Assembly (NCBI GenBank): GCA_036172665.1
Contig: CM069873.1
Location: forward strand, 39,836,001-39,900,000
DNA: 64,000 nucleotides
Direction of reading: 5' to 3'
Source of the DNA: Prosopocoilus inquinatus
Taxonomy: Eukaryota; Arthropoda; Insecta; Coleoptera; Lucanidae
Positions 62 through 59,901 of this stretch are shown piece after piece; position 1 is the stretch's first letter, and each line of letters starts with the position of its first letter. Below the pieces are notes generated by a model that was given only the letters and a program-made list of their open reading frames with translations, ran no database searches and was not told where the DNA came from. A program made the position numbers and the translations under genes.

Positions 62-424
62 AAACAGATAAAACAGCGAAATCCTACGATCGCTTTTTGA
101 CCTGATATTGCAATAGGACAGACAAACTGAAGCGGATTTGCACCTAATAAGTCCCCCATGCAAAGCGGCCATGCTTGCTGTCAAAGCATAATGAAAGTTT
201 TAAAAAAATTTGTTGCAAATCGTTTTTGATTGCAGTGAAAACCTCGAGCATCCTCTGCACAGCTGTTTCAGCCCTGTTTGGGGCTTCATCAGCAGAGACA
301 TAGCTCGACGTTCTCACTGCAAACCAAAACGACTTGTCCAATTTATTCGCAATTGCGATGTATTAGTGGTGAACAGATAAAACAGCGGCATCCTACGATC
401 ACTTTTTTGATCTGACATTGCAAT
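62..424 (-). repeat. hammerhead retroposon, 1.2-unit tandem copy
   Basis: A copy of the ~310-bp ribozyme-bearing repeat, with the hammerhead on the minus strand. The conserved end (aacagataaaac) occurs at 63 and again at 372, so one full monomer is followed by the start of a second, giving a period of about 309 bp. Shared blocks are the terminal segment, a segment around ggcggccatgcttgctg, and the hammerhead core. I found no clear target duplication around this copy. Confidence 0.8.
243..309 (-). ncRNA. hammerhead ribozyme motif (probably inactive)
   Basis: Read on the minus strand: CTCTG, then the invariant CTGATGA, stem II GCCCC/GGGC with an AAACA loop, GAAA, the palindromic stem III ACAGCTGT, then CAGAG closing stem I. 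An outer CGAGC/GCTCG helix extends stem I. The nucleotide at the cleavage position (17) is G, giving GTG instead of NUH, so this copy should fold but not cleave. Confidence 0.75.
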
Positions 425-440
425 AGCAAAAGCGATTTAT

Positions 441-1875: not shown

Positions 1876-4497
1876 TTACTGTATCCTACTACAGACCAAA
1901 AATAGGCATAGTGGTTTTTGTTGCACAAAGATGACAGTATCATAAACAAGGTTCTGCAAGTCTGAGCTTTTTTTAAAATATGGAAATACCGCGGAAACTA
2001 ATTTTTCTTGTAGTACATGTTGCACAAAATATTTCTAGAATTTTATGGAGATTTCTAAAATGCATTAAAAAATGGGGTATTCCATTTAAAATAAGAAAGT
2101 TGACAGCAACTTCCGGTATAAACGGTGTTTAATGTAAAAGTGTTCGAAAATTGAAAATATTATATTTTGGTAGATCCTTATCGTTAACTTATAAATGCAA
2201 AATATGAAACAGAAATTCAAAGGAGAAGTCCGTAAACTTTTAATGAATGTGTTACTTGAATCTCCCTGTATTATGTAGATCGTCAATGTCAGATCTGAAA
2301 TTGACAGTTATGATATAGCTTCTGAATACATCACATTTCAAGAAATAATCTGTTTTTTTTTTAATTTTTAAAATCAAAATCAATACGGTAGTCTTGATTT
2401 TGAATTGATTTGAATCAACAAAAATTTTCGTAGGCACAAATTATAAAATTAGGCAGGTATTTAAAATAATGGAAAATTATATTATTAAGCACGAAAAAAT
2501 ATATGTCTCATTCTAATTAAAAACATGTTTTCTCCTAAATAGCCTTTCTTGACTTTGAAAAGACGCTCTTTAATCTTTAGATCTCGAACACCCAATACTA
2601 TTCTGTTCGTGATTAATCCTTTCTTTTCTTTAAAATAGCATATGGTTGCAAGAAGACGCAAAGTCGTAAGAAATCGATCCATTTCTCCAGAAGCTGATCC
2701 CGTTTAAAACAATTATAAGATTCCTACAGTAAAATTTTTACAGGTAAGTGTTGACTTTCAGTGTTTCATTATTAAAGCTGGGAATATATGCAAGTTGCAT
2801 ATTTGTTTCTGTGATGTACCGAGTGTGTCACGCAACGGGGTTTCTTCAATAGCGCCTTTCCTGTTGATTATACAAAAAAAATTTTATACAAAAGTTTCAT
2901 CTTCTAAAGCTCCGCATAATTTAAAATTATTTTCATGTATACAGACTTTCCCAATCAGTCTGTACGGTATGGTACTTCGTTATTTTAAATGGAACCCCCT
3001 ATATTTTATAACGAATTTGAGTTTAAAAGGTTATTTTAAAGTAAGATTAATAAGGGTTCTCCATACCCAAATCCAATAGTTTTTGAGTTATTAGGATTTA
3101 TTTACGGTTTTCAAAGGATACAGATGTAATTTTGACAATTATCTCATTAACGAAGAAAGTTATTGCAGACCTCTAATTTTAAAACAAAAATGTCCTGAAA
3201 ATTTTTTTTATATCTGCAACTGTTATCGAGATATACTCCGAGAAGGCATTGTTGGGACACACTGTATAAATTAGCCCGTAAGATGAAAATAATTTGTATA
3301 CTACTCACGATGCATGCTTAGCGTACGGAATGTACATTTAGTGAATAAAAACAAAACATTTGTGAAATCAAGGGTGTTTTTTTCGTGTTACGTTAATTCA
3401 TAAAATGTTCCCAAGTGCTCCAGAAATAACTGTTACTGTCCAAATATTTTTACACAAAGGAAAAATTTAAGTTGTTCCAGATTTTTTCACATTGTCATGT
3501 CATTAATTTATCTGTCAAAAAGAAGTTCTTTTTTTAAATTTATTGAAAATGTTTTATATTCACAAGTATAACATAAATTACCGAAAAACTTTAGCATTAG
3601 AGAATCAGTTTGAATATTTAAATGGCCGCCTTGCATGGAATAACTTATTATGTAGCAAACTGGATTTAATTTGTCAATCCTAATGCATTGTTGGTCAAAA
3701 AGCGACCGTAGGACGTTGTTGTTTATATTATTCGAAAAATAAATTAATTTGACTTAAATTTTTTCGATTAATTCAGTTGTAGAATACTTACCAAAAAATA
3801 CGTAAGACATGGCATTTAATTCATATTGCAATATACCAATATCGTTTATTTGTATAGCCATACAAATTGAAGAACATGCCAGGAGTCCGTTACATAATAG
3901 CCTTATAAGAAAATTTGTTATTTTGCTGACTTTCGTTTCCTTTCTGTTGTAAATTCTCAAGATTTCCAATATTTTCACATTGAAATGTATAAAATTCATT
4001 TGGTTTGAGATGTTGAATTGAATGGAATAAAGAAAAAAGGTATCAATAGAGACTTCCGAACTACTTCGGGTATCTTTTGCGTATTTATTACAAGGCAGAT
4101 GTGCTGCGTTTATATTATGAGGTAACTTACATATCTGACGTGTGCTTTATATATAATTCATTAACAATTACTTGAAAATCTTATTCCAATACAGAACCGT
4201 TTTCGAATAAAGTGAGCCCGGTTTTTCATACAGGATACTCTTACCTTTACTTTTTCTTTTCTTTTTTTTTACACACAACACTAGGTTTGCAAACCAGGTT
4301 GCTACCGAAGTAACCCTACTATTAACTAGCTGAATAGGATTGGGCGGGTTATGTTGTAAAATTGCGGTTATATTGATCATACGTTGTCATGTTGGTTTTA
4401 ATCTAGGTATTTGCATAATTGGAATTTCTTTTAGTGCTCCAATAGTTACGAAATTAATAAACAAAACGTTGATGATAAATAAGAATAATATCACCAG
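1876..4497. other. spacer between inverted arms, no gene
   Basis: AT-rich DNA with no recognisable coding frame. Near 2073 (ggggtattccatttaaaata) and 3003 (read in reverse, gggggttccatttaaaataa) lie two facing TIR-like ends, consistent with a ~930-bp MITE-like unit. A hammerhead-family fragment lies at 3638-3726. The open frames of 60-94 codons here match nothing I recognise. Confidence 0.5.
3638..3726 (+). repeat. 5'-truncated hammerhead retroposon fragment
   Basis: Matches the 3' part of the ribozyme repeat: aatggccgccttgcatgg, then the segment ending aaaagcgaccgtaggacg and a diverged terminal segment. It lacks the hammerhead itself. It is the most diverged copy, and I could not define a target duplication. 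Confidence 0.65.
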
Positions 4498-8818: not shown

Positions 8819-8823
8819 AAATT

Positions 8824-10413: not shown

Positions 10414-10432
10414 ACAGTTTCAAAAGCCGGAC

Positions 10433-13300: not shown

Positions 13301-13589
13301 GTGTTCTGTAGCATGAAACATTAAATTTGTCAATTTATTATTTATAATATTTATGTTTATACATATAAAAAGTTTTCTTATTTATTTTGTTATGCCAAAA
13401 GAAAGGCTTATTTTTGTTTATTAATTTTATTATTACTTATTTATTAATAAAGTAAAATCAGTTCATTAATTAATTTATTTTATGCTTTATGAATACAAAT
13501 GAAAAAGGTTTCGAAAAAATACATTTTTAATCTTAAAACTGTCTAGGTACAACCGGAGTTATGAAATTACTTAGTTGTTAAGAAATAAC

Positions 13590-14009
13590 GAACAGATAAA
13601 ATAGCGACATCTTACTATCGCTTTTTGACCTAACATTGCAGTAGGGTAGACAAATTGAAGCGGGATTTGCTCCTAATAAGTTCCCCATGCAAGGCGGCCA
13701 TGCTTGCTGTCAAAGCATAATGAAAGATTTTAGAAAAATTTTGTGCAAATCGTTTTTGATTGCAGCGAGAACCTCGAACAGCCTCTGGACAGCTGTTTCA
13801 GCCCTGCTTGGGGCTTCTTCAGCAGAGACGTAGCTCGACATTCCCGCTGCAAACAAAAACGACTTGCCCAATTTATTCGCATTTGCGATGTAAGAGTGAT
13901 GAACAGATAAAATAGCGACATCTTACTATCGCTTTTTGACCTAACATTGCAGTAGGGTAGACAAATTGAAGCGGGATTTGCTCCTAATATTATTATTATT
14001 AAAAATTTT
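13590..14009 (-). repeat. hammerhead retroposon, dimeric, with 12-bp TSD
   Basis: Insertion of 420 bp inside the hAT element, flanked by identical ttaagaaataac at 13578-13589 and 14010-14021. It holds one full monomer (13590-13900, 311 bp) plus the first 109 bp of a second, then a short (att)n/A-rich filler. Element sense is minus, so the constant 3' end lies at 13590 and the 5' end at 14009 is truncated. Confidence 0.92.
13773..13839 (-). ncRNA. hammerhead ribozyme, near-consensus
   Basis: Core reads CTGAAGA (position 7, which tolerates variation, is A), stem II AGCCCC/GGGCT with an AAGCA loop, GAAA, palindromic stem III ACAGCTGT, cleavage triplet GTC, then CAGAG pairing with CTCTG. Predicted cleavage falls between 13788 and 13787 on the minus strand. 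All strictly required positions appear present. Confidence 0.85.
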
Positions 14010-14391
14010 TTAAGAAATAACATTATACATATAAAATATATGTATGCGTATAAATTGGAAACAATAATTCATTGTATATTTAAAAAAAATTATGCCGGCG
14101 ATTGTACGTCGACAAAACAACACGGCACGGCGGCACTTGTATTTTCCAGCACAAGCAAATGTCTCGTATTAGTCGTATTACATCTCTCTTTGATACTACT
14201 AATAAGTCGGTTGCATCTCTCTCGATCTAGATTCTCCACCTCTGAGAGCGCTCGAACCAAATTCGAGTATTTACAAATAAATACTACTAAATTATCTCGA
14301 ATTATTTTGAAATTAATCGAAATAATTCGATTTATTTATCATCGAATTATTCGAATTATTTAATTCGATTCTTCCCATCACTACTTCCAGG

Positions 14392-20641: not shown

Positions 20642-22551
20642 GAGTGCGTTCAAAAATGGAGAGTGTAGGGTAGAGCGCAGGAGAGAGGTTTATTGGCAAT
20701 TGAAAATTTTTGTCCAGGCTGTTTTAGTAACGTATTTATATACGCGGAGATGGCGCTAGGAGTAATTGTAAATTTGGCGCGAATGAAATGTCACATGTTG
20801 TCAATGTTAATTGCTTTAGTGATGGCGGTGTTGGTGATCATTTAAGTAAATTAAAGAACTGGCACAAAAATAATGGGTTAAATCAAATTATCCGCTAAAT
20901 AAACATTATTGATGATTAAATTATTTTTGTGTGACCAGAGAATAGTCTCTAATATAAACAGATTTTGAGAAAAATGGACCTCGCAAGATCTGCAAAAGAA
21001 GATTTAAATGTGTAGTTATTGGATGCAATTCTTGTTCCAATCAGACCAAATTTCCTTCAATTTGAAATTGGGGCTGCTAATTTAGGTAACGAAGCCCTGT
21101 GACAATTTCGATGCAAGAAGATGTGTATGCGTCATACTGATGAAAGGTTAGCATTACCGTTAGCATCATAACAATCCATAATAAGGTTTTTATTTTACCA
21201 AGTTAACAATGGCAGTAAAATATAAATTGTTACAGATATGTGTATCCAGGACATGAATGTAGGAAGATTAAATTAATATGGAGACTTAACCTGTATCCTA
21301 CATCGTATTGCCTACCGAGACAATTCATCATTTAAATAGAAATGAAAATGCAGAAGGTAGGAGCTACAACTATGAAATCACTTTAAATAATTTTATGAAA
21401 GTGTAACAAGTATTATTATGTGTGAGTGATTAGCTGATTTATAAAATTTAAAGTTGGTGAAAGTACAACAAGTACAAGTATTCTGAATAAGAATTGTTAA
21501 AAAAAAATTAATTTGCAGTCATTTTGAAGATATTCACACTTAAAGTCAAAGATAATGTGTACGGATAAAGAAGGTATTGAATTGCAATTTTGAAAGCATT
21601 TCCATAACAATGTACAAATAATGTGTTATTACTTGCAGTTACTTTTGCAGTTAAATATAGTAATTTGAGAATAATATGTGGTTTGTTTTATTAGCTTAAA
21701 ATCAAGTAAATATCATAATTTACGCATGATTTTCCGTATCTTTAGGTTTTCTTCTCCATACATTCATTTAGGTAATACGTTATATTCTGTAAAGACTTGT
21801 AATATATATTACAGCATATTAGAGTCTTTGCAGAATATAACGTATTACTTAAATGAATGTATGGAGAAGAAAACCTAAAGAATTATTTAAATTAAAAAGG
21901 CGCGTAAAAAGCGCGCGTAGAATAGTGACGCCATTGCAACAGATAAATACGTTACTAAGTACTATTACGTCATATTACGTGGACAAAAAATTTACATGGG
22001 AATTGGCTCTCTCTCCTGGTAGAGCCTTACCCTGAGGGTAATGACGGCTGATTCACGCAGAGCGTTGCGAGTGCGTGGTAAAATTCTGAACGATGAGAGA
22101 CGTCCTCCGAGTGGCGCAATTTTTTATTATTACTTTTGTTACTATTACTACATGAATATGAGTATTACAGACATCGTTTAATATTTAAATCTTATTTATA
22201 TCAACCCTTGTTCCATATTTAATTTTGTTGGTTCCAAAAACAAATTATATCAAAATCCTTAAAAAAAATTATTACATTCAGTAGGGAGAATAAGTATATT
22301 TTATTTTATAAGTTATTCAATTTGTCTCGCTTCACATCTATTACACACCTATGATTTTACATATTCCGCATATCGGGCGAAATTCACCTCGCTCCTGACC
22401 GGGGAGTTGGGAGCCCACACCGAGCGGAACGCCCTTGCGATTTTAGAACGCTTCAAGTGCGAGGTGCGTCTAGTTTGAAATTGAATTTATTAACGGCTTT
22501 AGCGCACCTGTATAACTCTCACCCGTTCGGGCGTCATTTATGAACGCACCC
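20642..22551. mobile_element. ~1.9-kb TIR element inside tandem array
   Basis: Left end GAGTGCGTTCAAAAATG and right end, read inward, GGGTGCGTTCATAAATG are imperfect terminal inverted repeats. The flanking array units resume directly outside, proving insertion. Flanks cta/tta would be an imperfect 3-bp duplication. No intact transposase is visible. 21541-22017 is repeated in inverted orientation at 48590-49051, so it is a moderately repeated family. Confidence 0.75.
21740..21880. repeat. foldback MITE, 141 bp
   Basis: Near-perfect palindrome with ends ctttaggttttcttctccat / atggagaagaaaacctaaag and a short loop near 21810. A second copy lies at 48728-48868. Confidence 0.85.
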
Positions 22552-23461: not shown

Positions 23462-24731
23462 TTGAAAATGGACGTGTTTGAATTATATTGCATGTTGTAC
23501 ATTCTCTATTTATTTTATGTTACTGCATCTATTGTAACAAAAAACAAGAAACGGGTACTGAATAGAAGATGGTGGGTCAGAGAAATATTTAGGGACCGAA
23601 ATATAGCAGGGTACTTTGCCACAACGTTTTTAAAAATAAAAGAAACTGATCCCTAACAGTTTTTTAAGCACACTAGGATGACTAGGCCGCTATATGAATT
23701 ACTTCTTTCATTAATGAAAGATGACTTAACAAAAAGTCAATGTGTCCCCCAATTGATTTTGAATGTAGATTGGCTTTAACTTTATCGTAAGTATTAATTG
23801 CTTATACATTAATAATAGTACAGCATTCATATAGCTCAAGTTTCAATCATTTTATAGGCATCTTTCACAAGGTGTATCTTACCAGTATCTTTCTTGGAGC
23901 TTTCATATGGGGAAATCTACTGTCCATGAAATTATATTAGAAACATGTGAATTGCTTTGGAAAATACTATCACCAATGTACGTTCCGCCACCAACATTAG
24001 ACGATTACCAACAAATATCAAAGGATTTTTGGAGAATGTGGAATATGCCGAATTGTGTGGGTGCAATAGACGGGAAACACATTAATATACAATATCCAGC
24101 AAATAGTGGATCAACCTTCTTTAATTACAAAAAAAAGTTTTAGTGTTGTTCTAATGGCTACTTGTGATGCTGTGATGATGATGAATTATTGTTTTACGAC
24201 TGTTGAGGTCGGTGCGTATGGTAGTCAGAGTGATGGAGGTAATAATAATAATAGTTTTGTAATTCAAAATTGTGCTCTTCAGTTACATTTATTGCAGAAG
24301 TTTTTGCTCAGTCAACAATGGGGAAATTATTGTTCAGTGGCAGATTGCCTTTACCACATGATACTGCTCTCCCAAACACAAACATAATGTTTCCTTATTA
24401 TTTTGTGGGAGATGCAGCGTTTCCATTAAAAAATAATATTATGAGGCCCTTTCCAGGGAGATTGCTAGGAGATACGAAACGAATATTTAATTATAGACTC
24501 TCAAGAGCCAGGCGTACGATTGAAAATTCGTTTGGTATTCTCGTTGCTCAATGGAGAATTTTGAAAAATTCTATGATATGCTTTCCCAAAAATTGTGAGA
24601 AAATTGTACTAGCGTGCATTGCATTACATAATTTCATAAAAGTCAACAACAGAGGGATTTATTGTCCTAGAAATTATGTAGACTGGGAAGATGATGAAGG
24701 AAACCTACATTTAGGAGACTGGAGAAGATAG
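23462..24731 (+). pseudogene. PIF/Harbinger DDE transposase, frameshifted
   Basis: A nuclear cut-and-paste transposase. N-terminal part 23468-23655 ends at an in-frame TAA, but the sequence continues as QFFKHTRMTRPLYELL. A frameshift near 23750 precedes a GT-AG intron (about 23789-23857), then SQGVSYQYLSWSFHMGKSTV. Catalytic motifs: Asp in CVGAIDGKHINIQ, Asp in GAYGSQSDGG, Glu in RARRTIENSFGIL. An indel in an A-run near 24136 and a shift near 24265 break the frame. The C-terminal 153-codon frame from 24270 (ADAAFPLKNNIMRP-like block, reading GDAAFPLKNNIMRPFPGRLL) is intact. Similarity to known family blocks is very high, implying a fairly recent copy. Confidence 0.92.
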
Positions 24732-28292: not shown

Positions 28293-29289
28293 TAAATTAT
28301 GCAATTGAATATGCATATATAAAATGTATCAAGTCACATTCGGGATATTCAAGTTGTGATAAATGTACTGATACAGGAGAATATTATGAAGGAAGAATTA
28401 TTTTTCAAAATTTTTCAGCTCATGTTAGACGAACTGATGAATCATTTTTGCTCCAATGTGATGAAGACCATCACCTCGGGGTATCCCCTCTTGTAAAATT
28501 AAATATAGGAATGGTCACAAAATTTCCTATAGATTATATGCATGCATGTTGCTTAGGTGTTTGTAGAAAGCTACTGAATTTTTGGATTTCCGGGAATGCA
28601 AAGACTCGCTTATCATCTAGACAAGTCCATAATATTTCAGATTATGTTTATTAAATCTAAGACCATATATTCCATCAGAGTTTAATCGAAAACCCCGATA
28701 GCTTCAAGAATTACAAAGATGGAAAGCTACCGAATTTCGTACTTTTTTGTTATATTTGGGACCTATCGTATTAAAAAATGTAGTAGACTTAGCTGTTTAT
28801 GAGCACTATTTAATATTCCATTGTGCAATGACAATTCTTTTGTCACAGAAGAATATTTCCAGTTTTAGAGAAAATTTTCCAGATCAATTATTGTCGTTGT
28901 TTATTTCTCACTCACAAGTTTTATATGGTAAACAGTTTTTAATATTCAACGTTCATATATTATGTCACTTAAATGATGATGTTAAACTTTACGGTCCATT
29001 GGATAATTTTTCAGCTTTTCCATTTGAATCTTATTTGGGCTTTATTAAAAGCTTGATCAAATCCCCAACTCACCCACTTCAGCAAGTACACAGACGCTTA
29101 ATAGAAGCTGAAAAATGTGTTCACGGAGATCTCCAAAGACAAATTACAATTGAAAAAACTCCTATTTGCTCTTTGAGTCATGTAGATGGTCCTCTTTTAA
29201 ATTTTAATAAGTTCACGCAATTTAAGAAGATACAGTTTAAAAACTTGTTGCTTCAAATTAACTCGCATCATAAAGCCGATTCATATTGC
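28293..29289 (+). pseudogene. EnSpm-like transposase, N-proximal part
   Basis: Clearly homologous to the intact protein at 36431-38611. Matching blocks: a zinc-binding CDKCTDTGEYYEGRIIF, RRTDESFLLQCDEDHHLG, FPIDYMHACCLGVCRKLL (second catalytic Asp), QRWKATEFRTFLLYLGPIVL, FNVHILCHLNDDVKLYGPLD and SAFPFESYLGFIKSLI (catalytic Glu). Frameshifts occur near 28650 and 28720. The frame 28747-29289 then runs cleanly to DSYC, where the TIR element interrupts it. Coding resumes at 32741. Confidence 0.85.
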
Positions 29290-31078
29290 CACAGACAACA
29301 ACTAAAGCAGACCTGTCAGCCCTGTAGAAATTTTGCACCAGATTTATGTATTAAAATTTTACCGCGAGATGGCATACACTTAGTTGGTTGTACTTCGGAA
29401 ATTAATTTTGAGCCTAGTGCAACCGAGAACTAAGACCGGAGGACTTAAAAATATCTTCCTCCCCTTCTGCGCGGATGTTTTAAAATTGAGATAATCTATG
29501 ATTGAGATTGAGAATATGCCCACTAGAGTCTAGCCACTATCAGACCCGAAGGCGCCACGAAAATTGCCGAGCGAAAGATGATGGTATTTTCATACATATT
29601 GAATTATGTAAATATTTTTCCCAGTGATTCAAAAGTACATTGCCAAATTTTATGGCAAGCGTTAATAAACATTTTAAAACATTACATTTGATATAAAAAA
29701 GAACAAGGCTAAAGAACATAAGATTCTGTCTTAACATGAGGCAAAATATTTCCCACATAAAATAAATTTAAAGTCGACATTTCGAAGTTTTCTGACACTT
29801 AAACGTCGCAAACGTCAAATGCACATTTATGACAGTGCAACGGTGCGAATTAATTAAAACTACTTTGTTATAATTATTAAATTATTTTTATTGAAAGGAA
29901 TAACGTAATGGAGCACGAAATTACATTATAAAGCTTCGCAAGCCAGGATCAGAATAAATTTGTCAAACAGGGCAAGTAATTTTTACGTTACATTATAGAG
30001 TTCCTCTTTGTGCCACAACAACCAAAGAAGAAAGAAGACTAAAGAAGTTTGAGTAAGGAAAGTTAAGAAAACGATTTTTTTATTTTGTACCTACCGTGTA
30101 AAATTTCAAACTACTTTACCCTTAAATTAAGATTTGGCCGTAATTAAATCATTTGTAGAATTAGTAGTGTCTACCAATACCGCCAGAAAACTATACCTGA
30201 GCCAACCTGAGCAAAGAAACACAACTTTACTGAGCATATACGCGAAACTGTCAAAGAAGCCGACATCTGTCAAAAATGACGTCACTGATATACATCCGTT
30301 TCCAGTTTCTGGCGAAGTGGCGTCAACGCAGAAACACTTGAACTAACAAATTGCCCAGGCCGTATAGGGACGTCGTCTCGTGAAATCTAGTAGGTCGTGA
30401 ATAAAACAATCATATGTCGTTTATGTCCAATGATGTAATAAGGTTAGATGGAGTCTAGCGTCATTTTGAATAAGTTTTAACATTACAGAGAGAAAGATAA
30501 TATGAGCATTCCCTAAGAGTAACAAAGATCAGAAATGGCAGATACCTCGTGGTTTGGGGCAAATGAAAGCTTAGTTCAGATGCATCCGGATACGCAAAAA
30601 ACTAGCCAATTAAAAATAAATCGCAATAAATATTTTGCATATTCGGAATCACAGGGGTTTATATCTGTTGCCACAGTTTTAAACGCAATTATAATTCCCC
30701 CCAGGTCGCTGGGATGGCAGTGATGGCACTGTATTTACAGTAAGCTGTAATCCTTAGCATATTTTTAAATTATCATGGTTATCTTTTATTGATTTTGAAA
30801 AGTTTGGAATCGGTTGTCAGAAGCCAAAGTATTAATTCGATTTCTTATTTAATTGAACGTTTAAATTTCGTTTGCGGCCATCCCAGGCGAACGAACAGGA
30901 CAATTTGTGATAAAAATAAGGTAAGAGAGAATGCTAAGCGAAGAGTGCACTTTTTCGGCTATCATGGCCGCGCGGCCTTATTAAGCGCCGGAGCGAAAAA
31001 CGATCCGAGCAAACGTGGTCGTAATTTATAGAAAGAAAATCACAAATTGTCCGTTTATTCTTCTGGAATAGCCCTAAA

Positions 31079-31344
31079 GTTTTTGGGTTGCAGTGAGAAT
31101 GTTGAGCTACGTCTCTGCTGATGAAGCCCCAAACAGGGCTGAAACAGATGTACAGAGGCTGCTGGAGGTTTTCACTGCAATCAAAAACGATTTGCAACAA
31201 TTTTTTTTAAAACTTTCATTATGCTTTGACAGCAAGCATGGCCGCCTTGCATGGAGGACTTATTAGGAGCAAATCCGCTTTAGTTTGTCTATCCTACTGC
31301 AATATCAGGTAAAAAAATGTAGGATGTCGCTGTTTTATCTGTTC
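31079..31344 (+). repeat. hammerhead retroposon inside TIR transposon A
   Basis: Plus-sense copy, starting just upstream of the ribozyme and ending at the constant tgttttatctgttc end. The same insertion is in copy B, so it predates the split of the two transposons. Confidence 0.88.
31090..31180 (+). ncRNA. hammerhead ribozyme, intact core
   Basis: CTCTG (31113-31117), CTGATGA (31118-31124), stem II AGCCC/GGGCT with a CAAACA loop, GAAA (31141-31144), short stem III ACAGATGT, cleavage triplet GTA with predicted cut between 31152 and 31153, then CAGAG. Outside the core an outer helix GCAGTGA/TCACTGC (31090-31096 with 31172-31178) lengthens stem I. Confidence 0.88.
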
Positions 31345-32740
31345 AATACTTAAACCGTTAACGCAGAAATATTTTTAAATTACGCGCCTTTTTTATTTTA
31401 ATTCCCCCCAGGCCGCGCGAGGCGCGCATTTTGTTGCTCCACATATACAACCTTAGCTTTGATATCTAATATATCTTTTATCTATGATTCGGAATGCATC
31501 TGAACTAAGCTTAATGCGTTTGCAAACACCGTTCCATGGCGAATAAGCGGTAGCGAATTGTCAAAATGAAGGCTGCGGTAAGTGAACGGTCGAAGTGGTC
31601 TGATCAAATCACGTGATCACTTTTTTCAATTGCTGATTGGTCAGAGGGTTTAGTCGGACCGTTGAATTGACCATTTTGTGCAATTTGACCACTCATTTAA
31701 CTCGGCCTTAATTAACTTCGTAATTTATAGTTCATATTCCAATTTTAAATTAGACTATCTATTTTTACAATTTGCACATGCGTGTAACACGAAATATATT
31801 CAATATTTTAAGTAATTTTAAAATGCGTCTACCCTCTCTGTAGATGGATATATTTACATCTTCTTGTCGCATATTTATGCAAACATCAGCGAAACAAGTA
31901 GGTATTCTGCATTTTATTAACGCGATTATTGAAATAATATAATAAAAAATAATTAAGAAACCTGCTTATCTTTTTAGAGTAAAATATTCACTCACATAAA
32001 ACTAAAAATCTAATAAAATGACATTCAAAATCAATTTAAAACATCCCGTAAAACTAGAAGCTAAATCAATGGATGTTAAATAATAAACAAAAACTTGATA
32101 AGTCACTTTATATAACTTAAAATCGAGAAAACGACCCCACAAAATCCAAAAAACTGGCTAACTAAACGCGCAGACAACGAATGTTTTCACGTTTTGCCCC
32201 GACTCAGCTGATCGAGGCTAGTTTTCTCTCTCTCTGATGTTCGTCGCGATACCTCTCACTCTACATCCCATCCACCCCATACCAGGTCATTGTTTATGTC
32301 ACACCTCTCACATGTAGATTATGTAGACGTATATTTTTAAGTTCTAACTTCTATGTAATTGCAACTCAATTTAAATTTCCTTCAGCGTATGCATTAAATA
32401 TGTTTATACAAAATTTGCTAAAATTATTTACAATCTTATGATTCTCGTTCTCATGTTGCGAATGTCGAGATGTGTGAAGTGTAATGTTTACAAATACTAC
32501 AAAAATACAGTGATCGTGCCTATTCGGAACAAGTCGTCATTGCTTGGCGGAAATTGAACTGTAATGGTGGGTTGTGTAGACCAGAAGAATAAAAGACCTG
32601 TTGACTACTTCACAGACTTACTGTATCTACAACTGACGACAGTGACACCTAGTTTAGTTGTAGACAATTTTCGATTTAATGGGGTGCATAAAAGTGCATA
32701 TAGGTGGTACGTCTGCTTTAGTTGTTGTCTGTGATATTGC

Positions 32741-33569: not shown

Positions 33570-33712
33570 TACAAACAAAAATTTGCTTGCAATTTTCAGT
33601 AGAACATAAGTTAACATGAGACAAAATTTATAGCACGTAAAACCTTATGGCCATAGTTAAAAAAAGGCACTGTATAATGTTTGTTATATACTTGTAGATT
33701 TATAAATTATGG

Positions 33713-33975
33713 AAAAATTTTTGATTTGCAGTGAAAACCTCGAGCAGCCTCTGGACAGCTGTTTCAGCTCTGCTTGGGGCTTCTACAGCAGAGACGTAGC
33801 TCGACATTCCCACTGCAGACCAAAAACGACTTGCCCAATTTATTCGCAATTGCTTTGACAGCAAGCATGGCCGTCTTGCATGGGGAACTTTTTAGGAGCA
33901 AATCCCGCTTCAATTTGTCTATCCTACTGCAATGTCAGGTCAAAAAGCGATAGTAAGATGTCGCTATTTTATCTG
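33713..33975. repeat. hammerhead retroposon with 5' inversion, 14-bp TSD
   Basis: Flanked by identical tttataaattatgg at 33699-33712 and 33976-33989. The right part (from about 33851 to the constant end ctattttatctg) is plus-sense, while the left part carrying the hammerhead is minus-sense. This is a 5'-inverted insertion like those made by twin priming in LINE-type retrotransposition. It interrupts the P-element THAP exon. Confidence 0.92.
33739..33805 (-). ncRNA. hammerhead ribozyme motif, core mutated
   Basis: Same fold, but the core reads CTGTAGA instead of CTGATGA, changing a normally conserved A. Stem II has a mismatch. GAAA, ACAGCTGT and GTC are kept. Probably inactive. Confidence 0.75.
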
Positions 33976-33989
33976 TTTATAAATTATGG

Positions 33990-34640: not shown

Positions 34641-35714
34641 TTTCTATTAGATTTACTGTAGACTTATTTTGGTCATTGTAAAGATGTCTCAAAAAGAACG
34701 TTTTGTTTTTGTAATAAAAAGCAACATTTATTCGAAAACAGGCGATTTTTATTTATGTTGAAATTATTGTGGAATATGGCCTGCATTCCTTGCACAATAC
34801 AGCGAAATAAAAATATCACCACCTTTTGAATAAATGATATGCTTATTTATTACAAAGTTAGATCTAGCACGACAATTTCATACTTTATAAATATGTTATA
34901 TTCAGGAAGTGCAATTTTCTAAGGTTTTGGATTTTTTATGATACACTTAATGCACCCAATCGAAAGCGTTGTGAAATATGCAGACAGCATCCCGTAGGTA
35001 CGTCAAATAAAAAAAATAGAGAGAGATGTGTAAGAATGAAATCCTATAAAACAAACAAGAGATTATATTTGATTTTGTTTTATTATATTTTTAATTTTAA
35101 CATGTACATGTAATTTCAATTTCAATTCAAAGTCTTCTTTAATTTAGCTGTCTCTTAAAAGTCTCTTCTCTCTAAAATAATTAAATAATACTAGAAAAAA
35201 TAATAAAAAGACATATTTTGAATTAAGACATGTGCCTTACGTCATTGTTATACAAGAAGTTCCGTAATGTAATGCCAGCACTCCACCCATGTGATCAATT
35301 CAAACCAAGTAAAAAAAAAAAAACTCTAATAAATGTTTGTTCTAAAGAAAACCGTTACAGAAATACTGGGTGTTAAATGTTCAAGTTTTTATTTTTTTAA
35401 TTTTAAAGTTAATAATATATGAAAAATAATAAAAACTAACAAAGCAAATCGTTTCTCAAGAGTACAACGTGTTTTTTAATTTTCGTTTTTGAAAACACAC
35501 TACCACTGCTGACAGATATCTAAATTTTTTTGATAATCACAATAAAAACGTCGTATTCTTGAAATACGGTTTGTTTTATTAGTTTCTTTTTATTTGAGCT
35601 CCGTTTGCTCTTCAGCAAGCAATAACTTCTTTCTACCAACTTCATAAGAAGCTTAAAAATAATAAAATTTACTCTTTATTCTCCAACAAATGATATTCAA
35701 ACTAGCCAGATAAG
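34641..35714. other. EnSpm internal non-coding region
   Basis: AT-rich. Downstream exons of the DUF4806-like gene might be here on the minus strand, but I could not recognise them. Confidence 0.35.
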
Positions 35715-35990
35715 AAAAAATTTAAATTTTTTTGCCGCAAATCGTTTTTGATTGCAGTGGATCACTCGAGCAGCCTCTGTACAGCTGTTTCAGGCCTCAT
35801 TGGGGCTTCGTTAGCAGAAACGTAGCTCGAGAGTTCCACTGCAAACCAAAACGACTTGTCCCTAGTTATTCGCAAAAGCGAGTCATGAATAGATTAAGTA
35901 AAGACATCTTAATTAAAATCGCATGCTGACCATCCTAATGCAATGTAAGGTCAGGATATGATTTTAAGATGTCGCTACTTAATCTATTAA
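35715..35990. repeat. hammerhead retroposon with 5' inversion, 12-bp TSD
   Basis: Flanked by identical tagccagataag at 35703-35714 and 35991-36002. The left part is minus-sense and includes the hammerhead and a monomer junction. The right part is plus-sense, ending ctacttaatctattaa. The inverted part contains the reverse complement of the constant end, so the template RNA was longer than one monomer. Confidence 0.92.
35765..35831 (-). ncRNA. hammerhead ribozyme motif, core mutated
   Basis: Core reads CTAACGA, losing the essential G of CTGATGA. Stem III ACAGCTGT, GAAA, triplet GTA and the outer CTCGAG helix remain. Expected to be inactive. Confidence 0.75.
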
Positions 35991-36079
35991 TAGCCAGATA
36001 AGGTTAATTTGAAGTTTCAAAATATATAGTAATGAAAAAGTGTTATAATTATAGAGTAAATTAACGTCTATGTACTCAC

Positions 36080-36430: not shown

Positions 36431-38611
36431 TTATAAATCTGTATGCAGAATCGGAAATATGGCGTAACCATTTCTATGAGGAATTTTAAAATATTTGCAC
36501 GATATTTCTGCAATTGGCCATATTTCTAGATTTGTACTTAAATCTTTTACATATGCGCAGCCTATTAACGTCGAAGAACAAGGACTACTGTACAGTTCTG
36601 TAGTTTGTAAAAAATTTTTACCGATCACCATCATGCAATCATTCAATGAATGATAAACAAAATTTAGAGCTAACACTACTTCTTCATTTATTTTACAACA
36701 ATTATCTGGTGCTGAAGTTAACAGACAATATGTTCCTGTTTTCATAACTTCGTATTGTTTCTCAGCGGTACAATTATCAAGAAGCGGTCCTCTTAAGTGT
36801 TTCTTTAAAAAAAAAGGTTTCTTGTCATCTTCTTCTTCCCCACATAATAAATTATCTCGTTCTAAATACCTTTTATGTAATTGTTGTAAAGGTTTCTCAT
36901 GTTTGCGTAACATACGTTTCAAAGTACGCATATAATTTTCAGAAGGAAAGGCACTAAAACTATCAAGTGATCCTAAATTATTAACATCATCTAGAAGATG
37001 ACATAAACCATGAACATTATGTGATGTAGGCTCTTTTCCATACAAAATTTGAAAACACTGAATAAAATATTTTAAAAGGTTGTGTGCATATTCTCCATAC
37101 TGATGTATGTGCTCGTTATTGCATAGTATTCTTATAGCAACATGGAGTGACAGTAGGTGTTCATATACCTCCTTTGGTACTATACAAAATAAAACCACTG
37201 GTGAAGTGTACAATAAAAATTGTCGCAGTTCTGTGGCTTTCCATTTCGAAATATTTTTAATTTCTTGTGGTCGACGAGCAAATTCTTTTGGTATATGACG
37301 TCTTAAAGACAACAGATTGGTCGATAATTTACAAATTTGTTTATGTTGAAGTCGTACGTTCAGACTACCATTCAACCATAAACCGATAACTTTTTTGACA
37401 ACACCTATGCAAACTAAATGCATATAGTCCAGTGGAATTTGCGATACTAAACCGAAACTTGAAATATTTGTCAAAATTGTGTGTCCTAAGTGAAAATCTT
37501 TGTCTGTTTGTAATACAAAGCTTTCATCTGTACGTTTTAAACAATCCACTTCAGGAAAACATATTCTCCTGTCAAGATATTCTCCTTCTTGAATACATTT
37601 TGTACATCCAAAATAACCGGTATGTCCTTTAGTTTTCGTTATGAACGACTTGGCCGGCGCATCGCATATGATGCAACGAAGTCGTACGTTAAACTTAAAG
37701 CCTTTATATAATATACCACATTTTGTCAGATGAATCATTTCATCGACAAATTCTTGTAAGAATTGATTTGGATTTTCTGGTTTTGCGTATCCATGACACG
37801 CACCAATTAAAAAAACTTTTCCCTTTGGATAAATACTGCCTAGGATTGGCCAGAGCTGACTATTGTTAGAGTTTGAAAGTGGTAAACCATCAATGCCAAC
37901 ATCAATTTGTATATCAGAATTTACTTCTGCAAAATGACACTTACTTAAAATATTCAATATGGCGTTTTGTATTCCAAAATGGCAATAATAACCAGAATCG
38001 ATGGTTTTTATTTTTGTAACTCTTGGTGTCTGGAGTAAAGTTCTAGCATCCTTTGGCAGAGACAAATTATTTTCTTGTTTTCGTAGGACAACTAATATAT
38101 CGGATATAGCTGTATGGCAAATATTATATTTAATTGCCCACGCGGCCAATTCATGTTTTATATTGAACGCAATACTGTCACCTTCATATATTTGTTTTCC
38201 ATTTTCATCTACTTCCTCAGAGTTTTTTATAAAACCATCACTAGTATGGATGTTTAATGAATTGTCATGAGTTGTATTGAAACATTCATCCTCTGAGCAA
38301 CATTTTTCTTGCTCAAATGAATTATTATAAAATTCATTTTGTAGTTCTTCTTCAATGAAAACCGAACAATGTTTTTTATTAGCTTCCACGCTTTCCTTAC
38401 TGGCTTCTGGTTGTAAATGAGGATTTAAATGGTTGACATGACGTTGGGATACTCTTGCGTTTCTACTGTCTTTAGAAACTAACCTGCGCAAATGTCTTCT
38501 AGATATATTTATTATATCTTTCTTCTTACGTGTCCTCATTGAAATGTTTAACGGGTCAATTTTCTGAAGCTCTATCTTAAAAAAAATCGGTTCAAGTCGG
38601 CTAATAAACAT
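36431..38611 (-). CDS. EnSpm/CACTA-like transposase, intact 726-codon ORF
   Basis: A single uninterrupted frame. Translation may begin at the first Met or at MRTRKKKD 24 residues later. The N-terminus is basic, then an acidic stretch. Catalytic DDE-type residues are likely the Asp of VGIDGLPLSNSNNSQLWPIL, the Asp of IPLDYMHLVCIGVVKKVI and the Glu of AFPSENYMRTLKRML. A zinc-binding region has CIICDAP then GYFGCTKCIQEGEY. A conserved SKWKATELRQFLLYTSPVVL block follows. These match metazoan tnp2/EnSpm transposases that cut and paste elements with short inverted ends. The lack of stops points to a young copy. The decayed relative at 28293-33004 is a different family. Confidence 0.9.
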   Translation of the reverse strand: MFISRLEPIFFKIELQKIDPLNISMRTRKKKDIINISRRHLRRLVSKDSRNARVSQRHVNHLNPHLQPEASKESVEANKKHCSVFIEEELQNEFYNNSFEQEKCCSEDECFNTTHDNSLNIHTSDGFIKNSEEVDENGKQIYEGDSIAFNIKHELAAWAIKYNICHTAISDILVVLRKQENNLSLPKDARTLLQTPRVTKIKTIDSGYYCHFGIQNAILNILSKCHFAEVNSDIQIDVGIDGLPLSNSNNSQLWPILGSIYPKGKVFLIGACHGYAKPENPNQFLQEFVDEMIHLTKCGILYKGFKFNVRLRCIICDAPAKSFITKTKGHTGYFGCTKCIQEGEYLDRRICFPEVDCLKRTDESFVLQTDKDFHLGHTILTNISSFGLVSQIPLDYMHLVCIGVVKKVIGLWLNGSLNVRLQHKQICKLSTNLLSLRRHIPKEFARRPQEIKNISKWKATELRQFLLYTSPVVLFCIVPKEVYEHLLSLHVAIRILCNNEHIHQYGEYAHNLLKYFIQCFQILYGKEPTSHNVHGLCHLLDDVNNLGSLDSFSAFPSENYMRTLKRMLRKHEKPLQQLHKRYLERDNLLCGEEEDDKKPFFLKKHLRGPLLDNCTAEKQYEVMKTGTYCLLTSAPDNCCKINEEVVLALNFVYHSLNDCMMVIGKNFLQTTELYSSPCSSTLIGCAYVKDLSTNLEIWPIAEISCKYFKIPHRNGYAIFPILHTDL

Positions 38612-39384
38612 ATTTTAAAAGGGGTGTTTCCTTTTTAAATGGATCACACTGTATGGTTTACCCTGTCCCCATTAGAAATGAATTCGAAGTACTACTCAAG
38701 AAATACGATGCGCTAATAAATTATTTAGATCAACTCTTGCTATGAAATTTTTATCACTGCATAGTGAAAACCATTTTTGCACTTTTTTATGAGTTTTATG
38801 CCGTAAAAATTAGCAAATTTGACACTTTGAAAGTTCATTCGAATGAAGCGATACTTTAATAGACCATAAAAATCTGTCTAGTTAAATTGCACAGCAAGAG
38901 TTAATTTAAATAATTTAATAACACAATGTGTAAAGAAACAACGTTCCAAATTTTCTCAAGAGATTCATTGTCAGTATTAAAACACTGAAAATGGTAATGA
39001 TGCATAAAATCAAGACATAACCACGATTAGTGATTATCAACGGAAGAAATTCACATAAAAAAAATATATTCCTGTGACTATTTTTTGAAGGTTAAAATCA
39101 CTGCCAATTTTATTATACGAATATCTATAATAATATCAAATAATTAATTATCTGTTTCATTTAAAAATCACTCAACTTTATTGTAATCTCTTGGATAAGT
39201 ACATGTATAAATATAAAAGAATTTACTTGCCTTATCAAAATAATTGAACACACATCGATCACTCTTTGAGTTCAGAAGCGAAGAGAACGATATGCGCCAA
39301 GCCGCCAAACGCTTAGCGAATGCAGTTACGGAACACTCGAATATATGCGATTAGATACGATTAGATACGATTAGCCGCACGTAC
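38612..39384. other. EnSpm 5' non-coding region
   Basis: Just upstream of the transposase start. It includes a MITE-like end (ggggtgtttcctttttaaat, inverted orientation) at 38620 and three copies of gattagatac near 39350. A promoter is expected here but none is identifiable. Confidence 0.4.
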
Positions 39385-39514
39385 ATACGTGTATATCCAC
39401 ATGACATCTAATGGATATTTACTGTGGACTGGATACGACAGACATAAGATATGTCTAGTCATGAATATCCATAGGACATCTAATGTATATTCACTATGGA
39501 CTGGATATGATATA
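39385..39514. repeat. EnSpm right subterminal repeats, inner part
   Basis: Motifs such as gacatctaatggatattt and gaatatccataggacatcta. Separated from the outer part (43345-43564) by the BEL insertion. Confidence 0.8.
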
Positions 39515-39519
39515 GATAT

Positions 39520-39701
39520 TGTAATGGCGATTGAATGGACTGTATTTTAATTTTTGTAGAAAGAAAGAATTTTTACTGTGACATGTTCTAAAGAGCTTTT
39601 TTTATTATTTTTTTTTTAATTCATGGCATTCTTAAATACATATGCATAATTATACATAATACGTATGCATTCATACAAAGCACTCTATTTACATCGTAAC
39701 A
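39520..39701 (-). repeat. BEL 3' LTR
   Basis: Minus-strand LTR beginning TGTTACGATG and ending ATTACA. A short purine-rich GGGGAGCA tract precedes it on the minus strand. Confidence 0.93.
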
Positions 39702-39768
39702 TGCTCCCCGGGTTGAAGGACAAAAGTCTTTAAAACAATTAATTAATACATTCGAAAAATTTTAGTCT

Positions 39769-40721
39769 TTAAGTTGGCACTGGTAACGGACACAAATTCG
39801 TTATAGTTCTTTTGTAAACGCCACTTGGAGTTTTTACACTTACAACTCGAACTTTGCCGTCAGTTCCAGGAAACACTTCAACAATTCTTCCTAAAAGCCA
39901 TCGTGCGGGAGGTAAATTTTCATTTTTTAAAATAACCATGGTTCCTACTGTACAACAATTTTTGCCTTGCTGCCATTTCTTTCTTTGTTGTAGATTACAA
40001 AGATAATCTCTACTCCATCTTTTCCAAAACTCTGACACATTTGTTGCATTAATTGATATCGGGATAATTTATTTATTGGTAAATGCAATAAACTTGGATC
40101 TGGAAGCATTATCATTACTTTACAAATTAAAAAATGTGACGGAGTCAGAGGTGTTAAATCAGTTGGATCTGATGACATGGCATGAAGGGGTCTTGAATTC
40201 AAGATTGATTCCACTTGAGTTAACACAGTTGAAAATTCTTCGTACGTCAAAATCGTTTCTCCAATTACTTTGGTGAGATGGAGTTTTACAATTTTTATAT
40301 TTGACTCCCACAAACCCCCAAAATGTGGAGATTTTGGTGGAATAAAATTCCATTTTACATTATATTGTGAGCAAAAATTAACAATAGAATCATTCGATTT
40401 TTTTAGAAATTGATTTAATTCTTTTAGTTAATTTGCAGCACCAACAAAATTTGTACCATTATCAGACCATAGTTCATTTGGGAAACCTCGTCTTGCTGAA
40501 AATCTACGTAAACATGAAATAAAACATTCAGTTGTCAAATCAGATACTAATTCAACGTGAATTGCTTTTACAGCAAAACATATAAATAAACAAATGTAAG
40601 CTTTTGAAGTTTTATAACCACGACCTTTACGATCCTTAATAATATAAGGACCAGCATAATCAATACCGGTAACTGAAAAAGGATGTAAAGGCGTTACTCT
40701 ACTTTCAGGAAGATTACCCAT
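39769..40721 (-). pseudogene. BEL/Pao integrase and C-terminal DUF5641-like domain
   Basis: Integrase core from 40721: VTGIDYAGPYIIKD (first Asp), LWSDNGTNFVGAAN (second Asp), then after a stop near 40428, PPKSPHFGGLWESNIKIVK (Glu). Then LTQVESILNSRPLHAMSSDP and LTPSHFLI, and a frame change near 40020 into RWLLGRIVEVFPGTDGKVRVV and KRTITNLCPLPV, the module typical of Pao-type integrases. At least one stop and one frameshift break it. Confidence 0.88.
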
Positions 40722-40749
40722 TATATTATTTAAAAATACAGGCTTAGCC

Positions 40750-42801
40750 TTAAGACATATTAAGCAATTTCTGGTTATGTCTTTTTATTGCTAGATTTTT
40801 TGAGTCACCTAACTTATTTTCATTATATTTAAGCGGTAATCTTACAATGAAACGACCATCATCATTTCTTGTATAATTATTTATAAATATTTTTTCACAT
40901 TCTTCATCATCATTAGACATAAATTTAACAGAAGGACAATCCTCAATTGTCCAAAATTTATTTATTACGTCATGTAAAATTTGATTTTCATTTATGCTGA
41001 ATAAACAATTGGAATTCGTATTGAATGAATTAATCTGACCAGCTGTAATATAACCAAAACTAGTGTTTTGTAATATGGGCATATTTTTTCCCAAGAAAAT
41101 TTTACCTGATCTGATTAAATTCCAAAAATGACTACCACCAATCAATAAATCAATTTCCTTTGATGTATTAAAATTAGGATCAGCTAATTTAACATTAGCT
41201 GGAATATTCCAACCAGAAATATCAATGGTTCTAGATGGTAAATGATTTGTAATTTGTTCTAAAATTAAACAAGGAAGATTAAAATTGAAATTATTGTACA
41301 TTGATTTCACACGAACATTACATTTTTTATTTATTTTGGAAGAACTTTGATTAATTCCAGTAATGTTCATGTTTATATTCTTTTGTGGTAACTTTAACTT
41401 GTTTATTAATCTTTTTGAAATAAAATTTGATTGTGAAGCACTGTCTAATATTGCATTACAAATATTAGCATTTCCATTAGCATCATAAATCAACACCTGT
41501 GCTGTTGATAAAAGTACATAAGAATTCAAATGACTATTTGTCAAAGCCATATCATTTTTATTAAAATTCTCCTCTGAAGGATGTAATAATGTATTATGAT
41601 TTTGGTTGCAAATTTTACATGACTTTGATTTACAATCTTTAGTTTTATGACCTACACATAAACACTTTTCACATAATTTATTTTCTTTTACTTTTTCTAA
41701 TTTCTGGTCGAACGACAATTTGGAAAAATCAAAACATTTATAAATTTTATGATTAGGTTTCTTACAATAATTGCAAGAAATTTTTCCTTTTGGAAGATTT
41801 TGAGACAAATAACTTTTTGAAATTCGAATATTTTCTTTATCATTATTCTTAGAAATCTTATTGTCCCTTTCTAATGACTCTAAAAGGTCAGCATGTTGTC
41901 TCAAAAAATCTTGCATATCCTTTAAGGATGGCGATTCATCTTTAAAGTTTTTAAATTTTTCCCATTCTATAGATGAATTTTTCTCAATTTTAGAAGAAAT
42001 TAGAAATATTAATAAAGAGTCCCATTTGTCGGTAGGTTGTCCCAAAGAATATAATGCACGCAAATGCTTTAAAATATTATCATTTAAATGACGTAATGCA
42101 TGAGCATTCTCAAATTTAATAATGGGTAAATGAAATAGTGCTTTTATATGATTATGTACCAATATTCTTGGATTATTATAACGATTGCACAATAAATCCC
42201 AAGCTATTTTATAATGAGAAGCAGTGAATTCTAATGATTTCATTATTTCAAGTGGTTCACCTTCTAAGGTTGCCTTTAAATAATGAAATTTTTGAATTTC
42301 ATTGATATAATCATTTACATGAATAAGACTTTCAAAGGTATCTTTAAAATATAACCATTCATCATATTTACCATTAAATTTTGGCAAATTAATTATGGGC
42401 AATCTAATGTTATTTTTAATATTCTGATTTGACACAGAAGACTTTGACATTTCTGAAATATTTTCATGATGATTTGAAACTGTTTCATTACTTTTCAAAA
42501 TTCTTTTTGCCATTGCAAAATATTTATTGTATTTATTTACAAATTCATCTCTCTCATTATACTGAATTTCAAGTACGTCATCATCACAACTTTGTTCAAT
42601 ATTTAACTGAACAGTTTCAAACTCATCTAAAATTTGTGGCAAATTTTGTAATCTTATATCCATTTCTATTGCTTTTTGCTCATCAATATCATTAGAATCA
42701 TTAAATTCATTAAATATGGGAGTTACAAAAGTTACAAAATTAGTTAATTTACGTTTAACAGCTCCTCTGTTCCTCACCAAAGTATTGTATTCTTGCGCCA
42801 T
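40750..42801 (-). CDS. BEL/Pao Gag-protease ORF, 683 codons
   Basis: Starts MAQEYNTLVRNRGAVKRKLT. Gag-like DUF1759 region includes LPKFNGKYDEWLYFKDTFES (~residues 133-152). Zinc knuckles CNYCKKPNHKIYKC and CEKCLCVGHKTKDC are both CX2CX4HX4C, followed by CKICNQNHNTLLH. The protease (DUF1758) has ILDSASQSNFIS as active-site segment and DLLIGGSHFW near its end. The frame then runs through the linker before RT (FWTIEDCPS, GRFIVRLPLKYN) and stops just past the deletion junction. Confidence 0.92.
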   Translation of the reverse strand: MAQEYNTLVRNRGAVKRKLTNFVTFVTPIFNEFNDSNDIDEQKAIEMDIRLQNLPQILDEFETVQLNIEQSCDDDVLEIQYNERDEFVNKYNKYFAMAKRILKSNETVSNHHENISEMSKSSVSNQNIKNNIRLPIINLPKFNGKYDEWLYFKDTFESLIHVNDYINEIQKFHYLKATLEGEPLEIMKSLEFTASHYKIAWDLLCNRYNNPRILVHNHIKALFHLPIIKFENAHALRHLNDNILKHLRALYSLGQPTDKWDSLLIFLISSKIEKNSSIEWEKFKNFKDESPSLKDMQDFLRQHADLLESLERDNKISKNNDKENIRISKSYLSQNLPKGKISCNYCKKPNHKIYKCFDFSKLSFDQKLEKVKENKLCEKCLCVGHKTKDCKSKSCKICNQNHNTLLHPSEENFNKNDMALTNSHLNSYVLLSTAQVLIYDANGNANICNAILDSASQSNFISKRLINKLKLPQKNINMNITGINQSSSKINKKCNVRVKSMYNNFNFNLPCLILEQITNHLPSRTIDISGWNIPANVKLADPNFNTSKEIDLLIGGSHFWNLIRSGKIFLGKNMPILQNTSFGYITAGQINSFNTNSNCLFSINENQILHDVINKFWTIEDCPSVKFMSNDDEECEKIFINNYTRNDDGRFIVRLPLKYNENKLGDSKNLAIKRHNQKLLNMS

Positions 42802-43158
42802 GCTTGAAACGTAGGTTCTTCTTCTCTTCTTAACAGCTAAGGACCTTCATTATTCATCAGGCTATCGTCCAGTCTTCATGAAAACATCGTAACGAATATC
42901 AGCGTCACACCGACGATATGCTAAGATGTCGTGGACTGTTCTCTTCAGAACGTATATATATAATATTTAATAATCAACAATTCAGAAGATCCTCGCTTCT
43001 TTGAATTTTGAACAGCAGTAGGAGGCAGCAATCAACTCTACGGTAGCAATACAATAGAAATTTCATCATGTTTCATTTACCACTCATCAAGAAATTATTC
43101 CATAGTTATCATTTATGCGGACCGATGTTACCAAATTATCCGGCTCGTTTGGACCAAT

Positions 43159-43339
43159 GTAATGGCGATTGAATGGACTGTATTTTATTTTTTGTAGAAA
43201 GAAAGAATTTTTACTGTGACATGTTCTAAAGAGCTTTTTTTATTTTATTTTTTTAAATTCATGGCATTCTTAAATACATATGCATAATTATACATAATAC
43301 GTATGCATTCATACAAAGCACTCTATTTACATCGTAACA
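43159..43339 (-). repeat. BEL 5' LTR and adjacent primer-binding site
   Basis: Partner of 39520-39701. Immediately inside it on the minus strand is TTGGTCCAAACGAGCCGG, starting with TGG as primer-binding sites do. It resembles the complement of a tRNA-Tyr 3' end, with mismatches. Confidence 0.9.
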
Positions 43340-43344
43340 GATAT

Positions 43345-50442: not shown

Positions 50443-50708
50443 CAACAGATAAAACAGCGAAATCCTACATTTTTTGACCTGATATTGCAGTAGGATAGAC
50501 AAACTAAAGCGGATTTGCTCCTAATAAGTCCCCCATGCAAGGCGGCCATGCTTGCTGTCAAAGCATAATGAAAGTTTTAAAAAAATTTGTTGCAAATCGT
50601 TTTTGATTGCAGTGAAAACTTCCAGCAGCCTCTGTACTGCTGTTTCAGCCCTGTTTGGGGTTTCATCAGCAGAGACGTAGTTCGACATCGTCACTGCAAA
50701 CCAAACCC
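50443..50708 (-). repeat. hammerhead retroposon inside TIR transposon B
   Basis: Orthologous to 31079-31344, with the constant end at left (caacagataaaac). Confidence 0.88.
50610..50698 (-). ncRNA. hammerhead ribozyme, intact core
   Basis: Minus-strand core CTGATGA, stem II with a CCCC/GGG helix slightly weakened by one change, GAAA, stem III ACAGCAGT (palindrome broken), triplet GTA, CAGAG. The outer GCAGTGA/TCACTGC helix is kept. Confidence 0.82.
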
Positions 50709-59865: not shown

Positions 59866-59901
59866 GAAAGCGATCGTAGGATGTCGCTGTTTCATCTATT
59901 T
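59866..59901 (+). repeat. 36-bp 5'-truncated hammerhead retroposon, 9-bp TSD
   Basis: Only the constant 3' end (cgatcgtaggatgtcgctgt through catctattt) is present, flanked by gataaacat at 59857-59865 and 59902-59910. Lies about 140 bp downstream of the unknown gene. Confidence 0.85.

Follow-up and report, generated by a model that had tools for sequence, protein, structure and literature searches.

The 64-kb window examined for the current report (the whole stretch of DNA that was analysed) contains eight loci that represent seven insertion events of one 311-nt non-coding unit, and we consider it probable, at roughly 75%, that this repeat, which probably belongs to an insect genome, represents a new family within the animal non-LTR retrozymes, mobilised in trans by the enzyme of a LINE or a Penelope-like element (PLE). 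The architecture of the ribozyme, a common 3' end, 5' truncation, target duplications, copies that exceed the length of the unit and inversions can all be seen directly in the sequence. Retrozymes are an already known kind of element; the family itself looks new, being set apart from the published ones by description. Its scars hint at the insertion route of such elements. If our reading is correct, they would show the re-entry of a retrozyme into the genome, which is the step left open by the published model, and the defined start point, the target duplications and the 5' inversions would allow direct tests, in the host, of which enzyme is the partner and whether the template is a circle or a multimer. 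These scars of reverse transcription and the fixed 3' end, which were absent from the initial annotation of this DNA, are the most informative part of the analysis.

The reference unit of 311 nt (13900-13590, minus strand) was taken from the insertion I13.6k, and u coordinates count along that unit. Its GC content is 43.7%, its longest ATG-initiated ORF (unit treated as a circle) encodes 89 aa, and the ribozyme cut site falls at u113/114. The stretch 31079-31344, which had been presented as the monomer (266 nt), turned out to be a 5'-truncated copy of this unit, and two additional truncated copies that lack the hammerhead (3622-3724 and 59867-59900) were found beyond those noted before. The insertions are as follows:

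63..426, minus strand: insertion I0.2k, u257-311 and then u1-310
3622..3724, plus strand: insertion I3.6k, decayed, u200-302, without hammerhead
13590..13989, minus strand: insertion I13.6k, u223-311 and then u1-311, 400 nt
31079..31345, plus strand: insertion I31k, u42-311, 5'-truncated, inside a larger duplicated repeat
33718..33980, plus strand: insertion I33.7k, u148-15 inverted and then u184-311 direct, with a junction overlap of 3 nt
35710..35991, plus strand: insertion I35.7k, u184-1 and u311-287 inverted and then u256-311 direct
50443..50706, minus strand: insertion I50k, u42-311, same event as I31k
59867..59900, plus strand: insertion I59.8k, u277-310 only, 5'-truncated, without hammerhead

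Direct terminal repeats were not found in the insertions apart from the partial lap, a simple-pattern search detected no Pol III A and B boxes, and scans of viral contigs with window-derived patterns gave no match.

The copies at 31k and 50k lie in a larger repeat that is present as two inverted copies (about 28702-32733, or 29290-32733, and 49052-53063) with 96-98% identity. The two inserts are identical at 249 of 262 positions (13 differences) and their downstream flanks at 1345 of 1388 (43 differences); 31k and 50k are therefore one insertion that was duplicated together with the larger repeat. The six copies of the initial annotation, whose independence was overstated, accordingly amount to five independent hammerheads. 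An ORF with a DUF4218 domain (28702-29433) adjoins the larger repeat.

All six of the hammerhead-bearing copies that had been described as carrying CTGATGA or variants of it were located by alignment; they belong to five events:

232-320, minus strand: hammerhead of I0.2k, core CTGATGA, but G at position 17
13762-13850, minus strand: hammerhead of I13.6k, core CTGAAGA at 13822-13816, GUC cut site after 13788, matches the strict descriptor
31090-31178, plus strand: hammerhead of I31k, core CTGATGA at 31118-31124, cut site 31152/31153, matches the strict descriptor
33728-33816, minus strand: hammerhead of I33.7k, core altered to CTGTAGA (A6 to U)
35754-35842, minus strand: hammerhead of I35.7k, core altered to CTAACGA (G5 to A)
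50609-50697, minus strand: hammerhead of I50k, core CTGATGA intact, stem II mismatch, does not match the strict descriptor

The strict type I descriptor consisted of CTGANGA, a stem II of at least 4 bp, GAAA, a stem III of at least 2 bp, a U followed by any base other than G, and a stem I of at least 5 bp, with G-U pairs allowed. With these thresholds, which were chosen with the motif already in view, a search of both strands found two loci, 31118 (plus) and 13822 (minus), and no match in any of 200 dinucleotide shuffles. The full descriptor, in which the type I core is joined by three stems, thus describes two of the six copies (13.6k and 31k), and the remaining four (0.2k, 33k, 35k and 50k) are damaged or mismatched. 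The match at 31k agrees with the cut position 31152/31153 that had been predicted for it. Both copies that had been singled out for an intact core, 31k and 50k, do possess one, but the latter fails the descriptor at stem II. Counts of CTGATGA by itself were dropped as evidence, with 13 occurrences in the window versus 6.5 expected and a count of 13 reached by one of 100 shuffles.

The curated Rfam models recognise hammerhead-like RNA in these copies, but under their cut-offs. The match to such models that had been anticipated was obtained only in this sub-threshold form: across the whole window no Rfam model gave a match at its gathering threshold, RF00163 scored 25.8 bits on the 13.6k copy (gathering threshold 34; E of 1.2e-4 for a search of 141 nt only), and HH9 scored 20.3 bits on the 31k copy (gathering threshold 52). 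When searched over the whole window, HH9 yielded scores of 20.3 and 19.0 bits with E values of 2.4 and 6.4. The ribozyme region also drew a sub-threshold match to MIR851 (28.8 of 90 bits), which we read as a response to the long hairpin there, and another to sR14 (16.9 of 38 bits). When a covariance model was derived from the six copies, its 12 matches fell without exception on the same six loci, and half of them are weak opposite-strand matches that result from the palindrome. Standard pairs fill 176 of the 186 cells of the hammerhead fold (94.6%), and sliding the partners by 1-3 columns lowers this fraction to 33-47%. Three two-sided pair changes were observed, all in the outer helix, and support from covariation is modest because 26 of 500 shuffles reach three such changes and the rows for 31k and 50k are not independent.

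In an ungapped 89-nt alignment of the six copies, stem I comprises 7 bp, an internal loop UAC/U, 6 bp more and, outermost, 11 bp. Stem II comprises 5 bp with the loop CAANNA, and stem III comprises 2 bp with a tetraloop. The GAAA, the 2-bp stem III and the CAANNA loop are kept in all six copies and the UAC of the stem I internal loop in five (UAU in the other). The internal loop of stem I and loop II may resemble the contact loops of known hammerheads. The second part of stem I has a mismatch that is common to 31k and 50k. At stem III, four of the six copies carry the 8-nt palindrome ACAGCTGT, for which a duplex between two molecules was computed at -11.1 kcal/mol; by this estimate the palindrome could pair two ribozyme molecules.

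The 3' end is TTTTATCTGTT or a close variant in six of the seven events, the seventh (I3.6k) being decayed; if 3' ends were random, the chance that at least five of six further ends would lie within 3 nt of the first is ~5e-10. The 5' ends are variable, with truncation scattered among the insertions, and the cut site is spanned by five events, none of which ends there. Three of the seven inserts are longer than one unit (maximum ~1.3 units) and none reaches two; arrays of two or more whole units were not found in the 64-kb window. The 5' part is inverted in two events, I33.7k and I35.7k. When the two flanks of each insertion were compared, with 5000 flank pairs drawn at random from the window as the background (pairs less than 200 nt apart dropped), target duplications of 9-14 nt were detected in four of the seven events:

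13578..13589, no strand: 3' target duplication of I13.6k, 12 nt, perfect, P about 0.0008
14010..14021, no strand: 5' target duplication of I13.6k, 12 nt
33699..33712, no strand: 5' target duplication of I33.7k, 14 nt, P about 0.0002
33976..33989, no strand: 3' target duplication of I33.7k, 14 nt
35703..35714, no strand: 5' target duplication of I35.7k, 12 nt, P about 0.0008
35991..36002, no strand: 3' target duplication of I35.7k, 12 nt
59857-59865 and 59902-59910: target duplication of I59.8k, 9 nt, P about 0.017

At I13.6k, 20 nt of A/T-rich filler separate the 5' target duplication from the unit. The same flank scoring found no target duplication at 0.2k, 31k/50k or 3.6k. Two sequences in the 31k/50k flanks, AATAGCCTTAAA (50k) and AATACTTAAA, might perhaps be a decayed target duplication and were left out of the count. 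Descriptor, alignment and insertion anatomy support the earlier proposal that the type I hammerhead is carried by a dispersed element which is short and non-autonomous and has its closest kin among the retrozymes.

Copies that extend beyond one unit permit comparison of their overlapping laps. The laps of I13.6k are identical (89 of 89 nt), and since its 12-nt duplication is also perfect, this insertion is probably recent. In I0.2k, by contrast, 6 of 55 lap columns are different, and part of these differences match other copies; in I35.7k the number is 3 of 25. As do the lack of whole-unit arrays and the three events with no target duplication, the lap differences of I0.2k weigh against the retrozyme reading. 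Variants that are shared by both laps and seen in no other insertion occur at one site in 13.6k, one in 0.2k and two in 35.7k; such private variants appear to favour a single template for each insertion.

Insertions that end alike at 3' but scatter at 5', and whose target duplications vary in length, bear the classic signature of target-primed reverse transcription, and copies that exceed one unit require a circular or multimeric RNA template. Transcription, cleavage, circularisation and the partner enzyme we infer as follows. The 311-nt unit with its type I hammerhead would be transcribed as RNA of more than one unit; the ribozyme would cut these multimeric transcripts, possibly as dimers formed via the palindromic stem III, and the cut pieces would be joined into circles. 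A reverse transcriptase supplied in trans would then start at one fixed point, which lies immediately 3' to a small hairpin and ~198 nt past the ribozyme cut in the downstream direction, with a nick in the chromosomal DNA as its primer, and it would cover up to ~1.3 units and leave target duplications of 9-14 bp. The apparent start of reverse transcription is distinct from the ribozyme cut site. A second priming event would account for the inverted 5' parts. Twin priming by LINEs is a source of inverted 5' parts. By analogy, those observed here fit either a second priming or the head-to-head structures described for Penelope (PMC3846280). The most specific version of this scheme, in which retrozyme circles enter at nicks from a built-in start that is separate from the ribozyme, run for more than one lap and often undergo two primings, is put forward tentatively, at somewhat less than even odds.

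Within the retrozyme reading, LINEs and PLEs are near-equal candidates for the partner enzyme, and a PLE rather than a LINE falls somewhat short of an even chance. According to a review, no retrozyme motif points to a partner enzyme (PMC7761336), and PLEs are the partners favoured by the retrozyme authors (PMC7229834). The 311-nt family resembles PLEs in its partial tandems, 5' inversions, short duplications and internal start of reverse transcription downstream of a hammerhead (PMC11167929, PMC3846280): Penelope copies include partial tandems, head-to-head inverted pseudo-LTRs and duplications of 8-10 bp (PMC3846280), and a purified PLE begins reverse transcription internally, 3' of its own hammerhead (PMC11167929). 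The start region of our family differs, however, from the AC-rich stem-loop described for that purified PLE (PMC11167929). The hammerheads of PLEs are minimal ones located in pseudo-LTRs, whereas those of the 311-nt family have a two-base-pair stem III and an internal loop in stem I, and PLEs carry an ORF for a telomerase-like reverse transcriptase and a GIY-YIG endonuclease, whereas the 311-nt unit has no ATG ORF over 89 aa. The inverted and direct parts of I33.7k have no overlap in unit coordinates, as in LINE twin priming, and this speaks against a PLE.

A less probable, though substantial, alternative is that the template was an uncleaved linear multimer and that the ribozyme plays no part in insertion, the repeat being SINE-like with an internal start of reverse transcription; this overlaps the retrozyme reading except for cleavage and the circle. 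It would explain why all five of the events that span the cut site run through it uncut, and in a purified Penelope-like system ribozyme mutants had no effect on insertion in vitro (PMC11167929). The 64 kb examined, however, offer no array of at least two units as a source of such transcripts, and the lap-private variants (1, 1 and 2 sites) fit a single circle, as they would also fit a homogenised array.

Somewhat less likely again, at about one chance in four, is that this family carries no usefully active hammerhead but a relic of one or a look-alike. The pair 10.1-11.1 is A-U in all six copies; G-C is the usual hammerhead pair at this place. In addition, the best fold in which the core is free is less stable than the minimum-energy fold by 4.9 (13k) and 4.2 (31k) kcal/mol, and together this pair and the competing fold, as modelled, speak against ready ribozyme activity. 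Three of the five events (0.2k, 33.7k and 35.7k) carry a disabling change in the core or the cut site, and the sub-threshold Rfam scores point in the same direction. Against the relic stands I13.6k, probably the most recent insert, whose ribozyme is intact and cuts, by its sequence, at a GUC site. The pair 10.1-11.1 is described as the most conserved of the hammerhead after 15.1-16.1, but natural hammerheads with a U-U mismatch at this place exist, and U-U was the best tolerated mispair there (PMC3088659); it is also present at this position in an active axolotl motif (PMC7229834). Dimers formed via the palindromic stem III (4 of 6 copies) could also help. It is very improbable that the element is a DNA transposon of the foldback or MITE type whose stem resembles a hammerhead by chance: u30-160 does form an imperfect palindrome (68.7% over 134 columns), and palindromic MITE-like repeats are common in the window, but the scattered 5' ends, common 3' end, 9-14 nt duplications and copies longer than the unit disfavour it.

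The retrozyme reading can also be compared with published families. Metazoan non-LTR retrozymes are described as GC-poor, non-coding repeats of 150-450 bp with target duplications of >4 bp and with insects among their hosts (Cervera and de la Pena 2020, PMC7229834). The 311-nt family, compared with them by description, is likewise a short non-coding repeat (GC 43.7%) with a type I hammerhead (PMC7229834, PMC7761336), with no LTR seen and with target duplications of 9-14 nt (PMC7229834). It differs in that the published repeats usually occur as tandem arrays, whereas insertions in the window contain at most ~1.3 units, and in its A-U at 10.1-11.1 (PMC7229834); its fixed 3' end and 5' inversions are without counterpart in the parts of the metazoan retrozyme accounts consulted (PMC7229834, PMC7761336). 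The pDo500 repeat of Dolichopoda cave crickets is another insect repeat with an embedded hammerhead, but it is described as a satellite DNA family, whereas ours, compared with it by description only, consists of dispersed insertions with target duplications (PMC2837043). Amphibian retrozymes of the newt satellite 2 type share with our family a weak stem III, a palindromic tetraloop region and a likely dimeric action, and where stem III is weak their ribozymes work in dimeric form; one axolotl group has a weak base of helix II (PMC7229834). They differ in having vertebrate hosts, and our family has a 2-bp stem III, with an 8-nt palindrome in four of six copies. In the literature searched, a partial collection, neither the 311-nt family nor comparable insertion scars of retrozymes were found described.

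Other mobile sequences are abundant in the window. I13.6k sits between a zinc-knuckle ORF (7733-8818) and an ORF with RT, RNase H and H2C2 domains (14364-16343), which look like parts of one Gypsy-type element; the Gypsy-like pieces extend over 7733-17747, with other ORFs in between. The region 39375-43509 is Pao/BEL-like as judged from a DUF1759 ORF (40753-42846, minus strand) and has on its two sides direct repeats of 182 nt (39520-39701 and 43158-43339), which are 97.8% identical and likely LTRs. A palindromic MITE-like repeat is found at 21739-21881 and 48727-48869, and sub-threshold Rfam matches to MIR5380 and similar models (21742-21878 and 48730-48866) fall on these palindromic repeats and are unrelated to the hammerhead family. 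A minisatellite at 19975-20650 has a unit of ~112 bp and six copies of a 74-nt segment. The ORF at 45408-46064 contains the N-terminal domain of a TNP-like RNase H (P-element/THAP type transposase), and the one at 24255-24731 has a DDE_Tnp_4 domain and is presumably Harbinger-like. Finally, indirect evidence for an insect host comes from a transposon gene, the ORF at 36434-38614 (minus strand, 727 aa), which has no Pfam match but 2193 relatives, many of them named as transposase-domain or DUF4218 insect proteins; the organisms named among the 120 listed of these relatives are insects and one sea spider.
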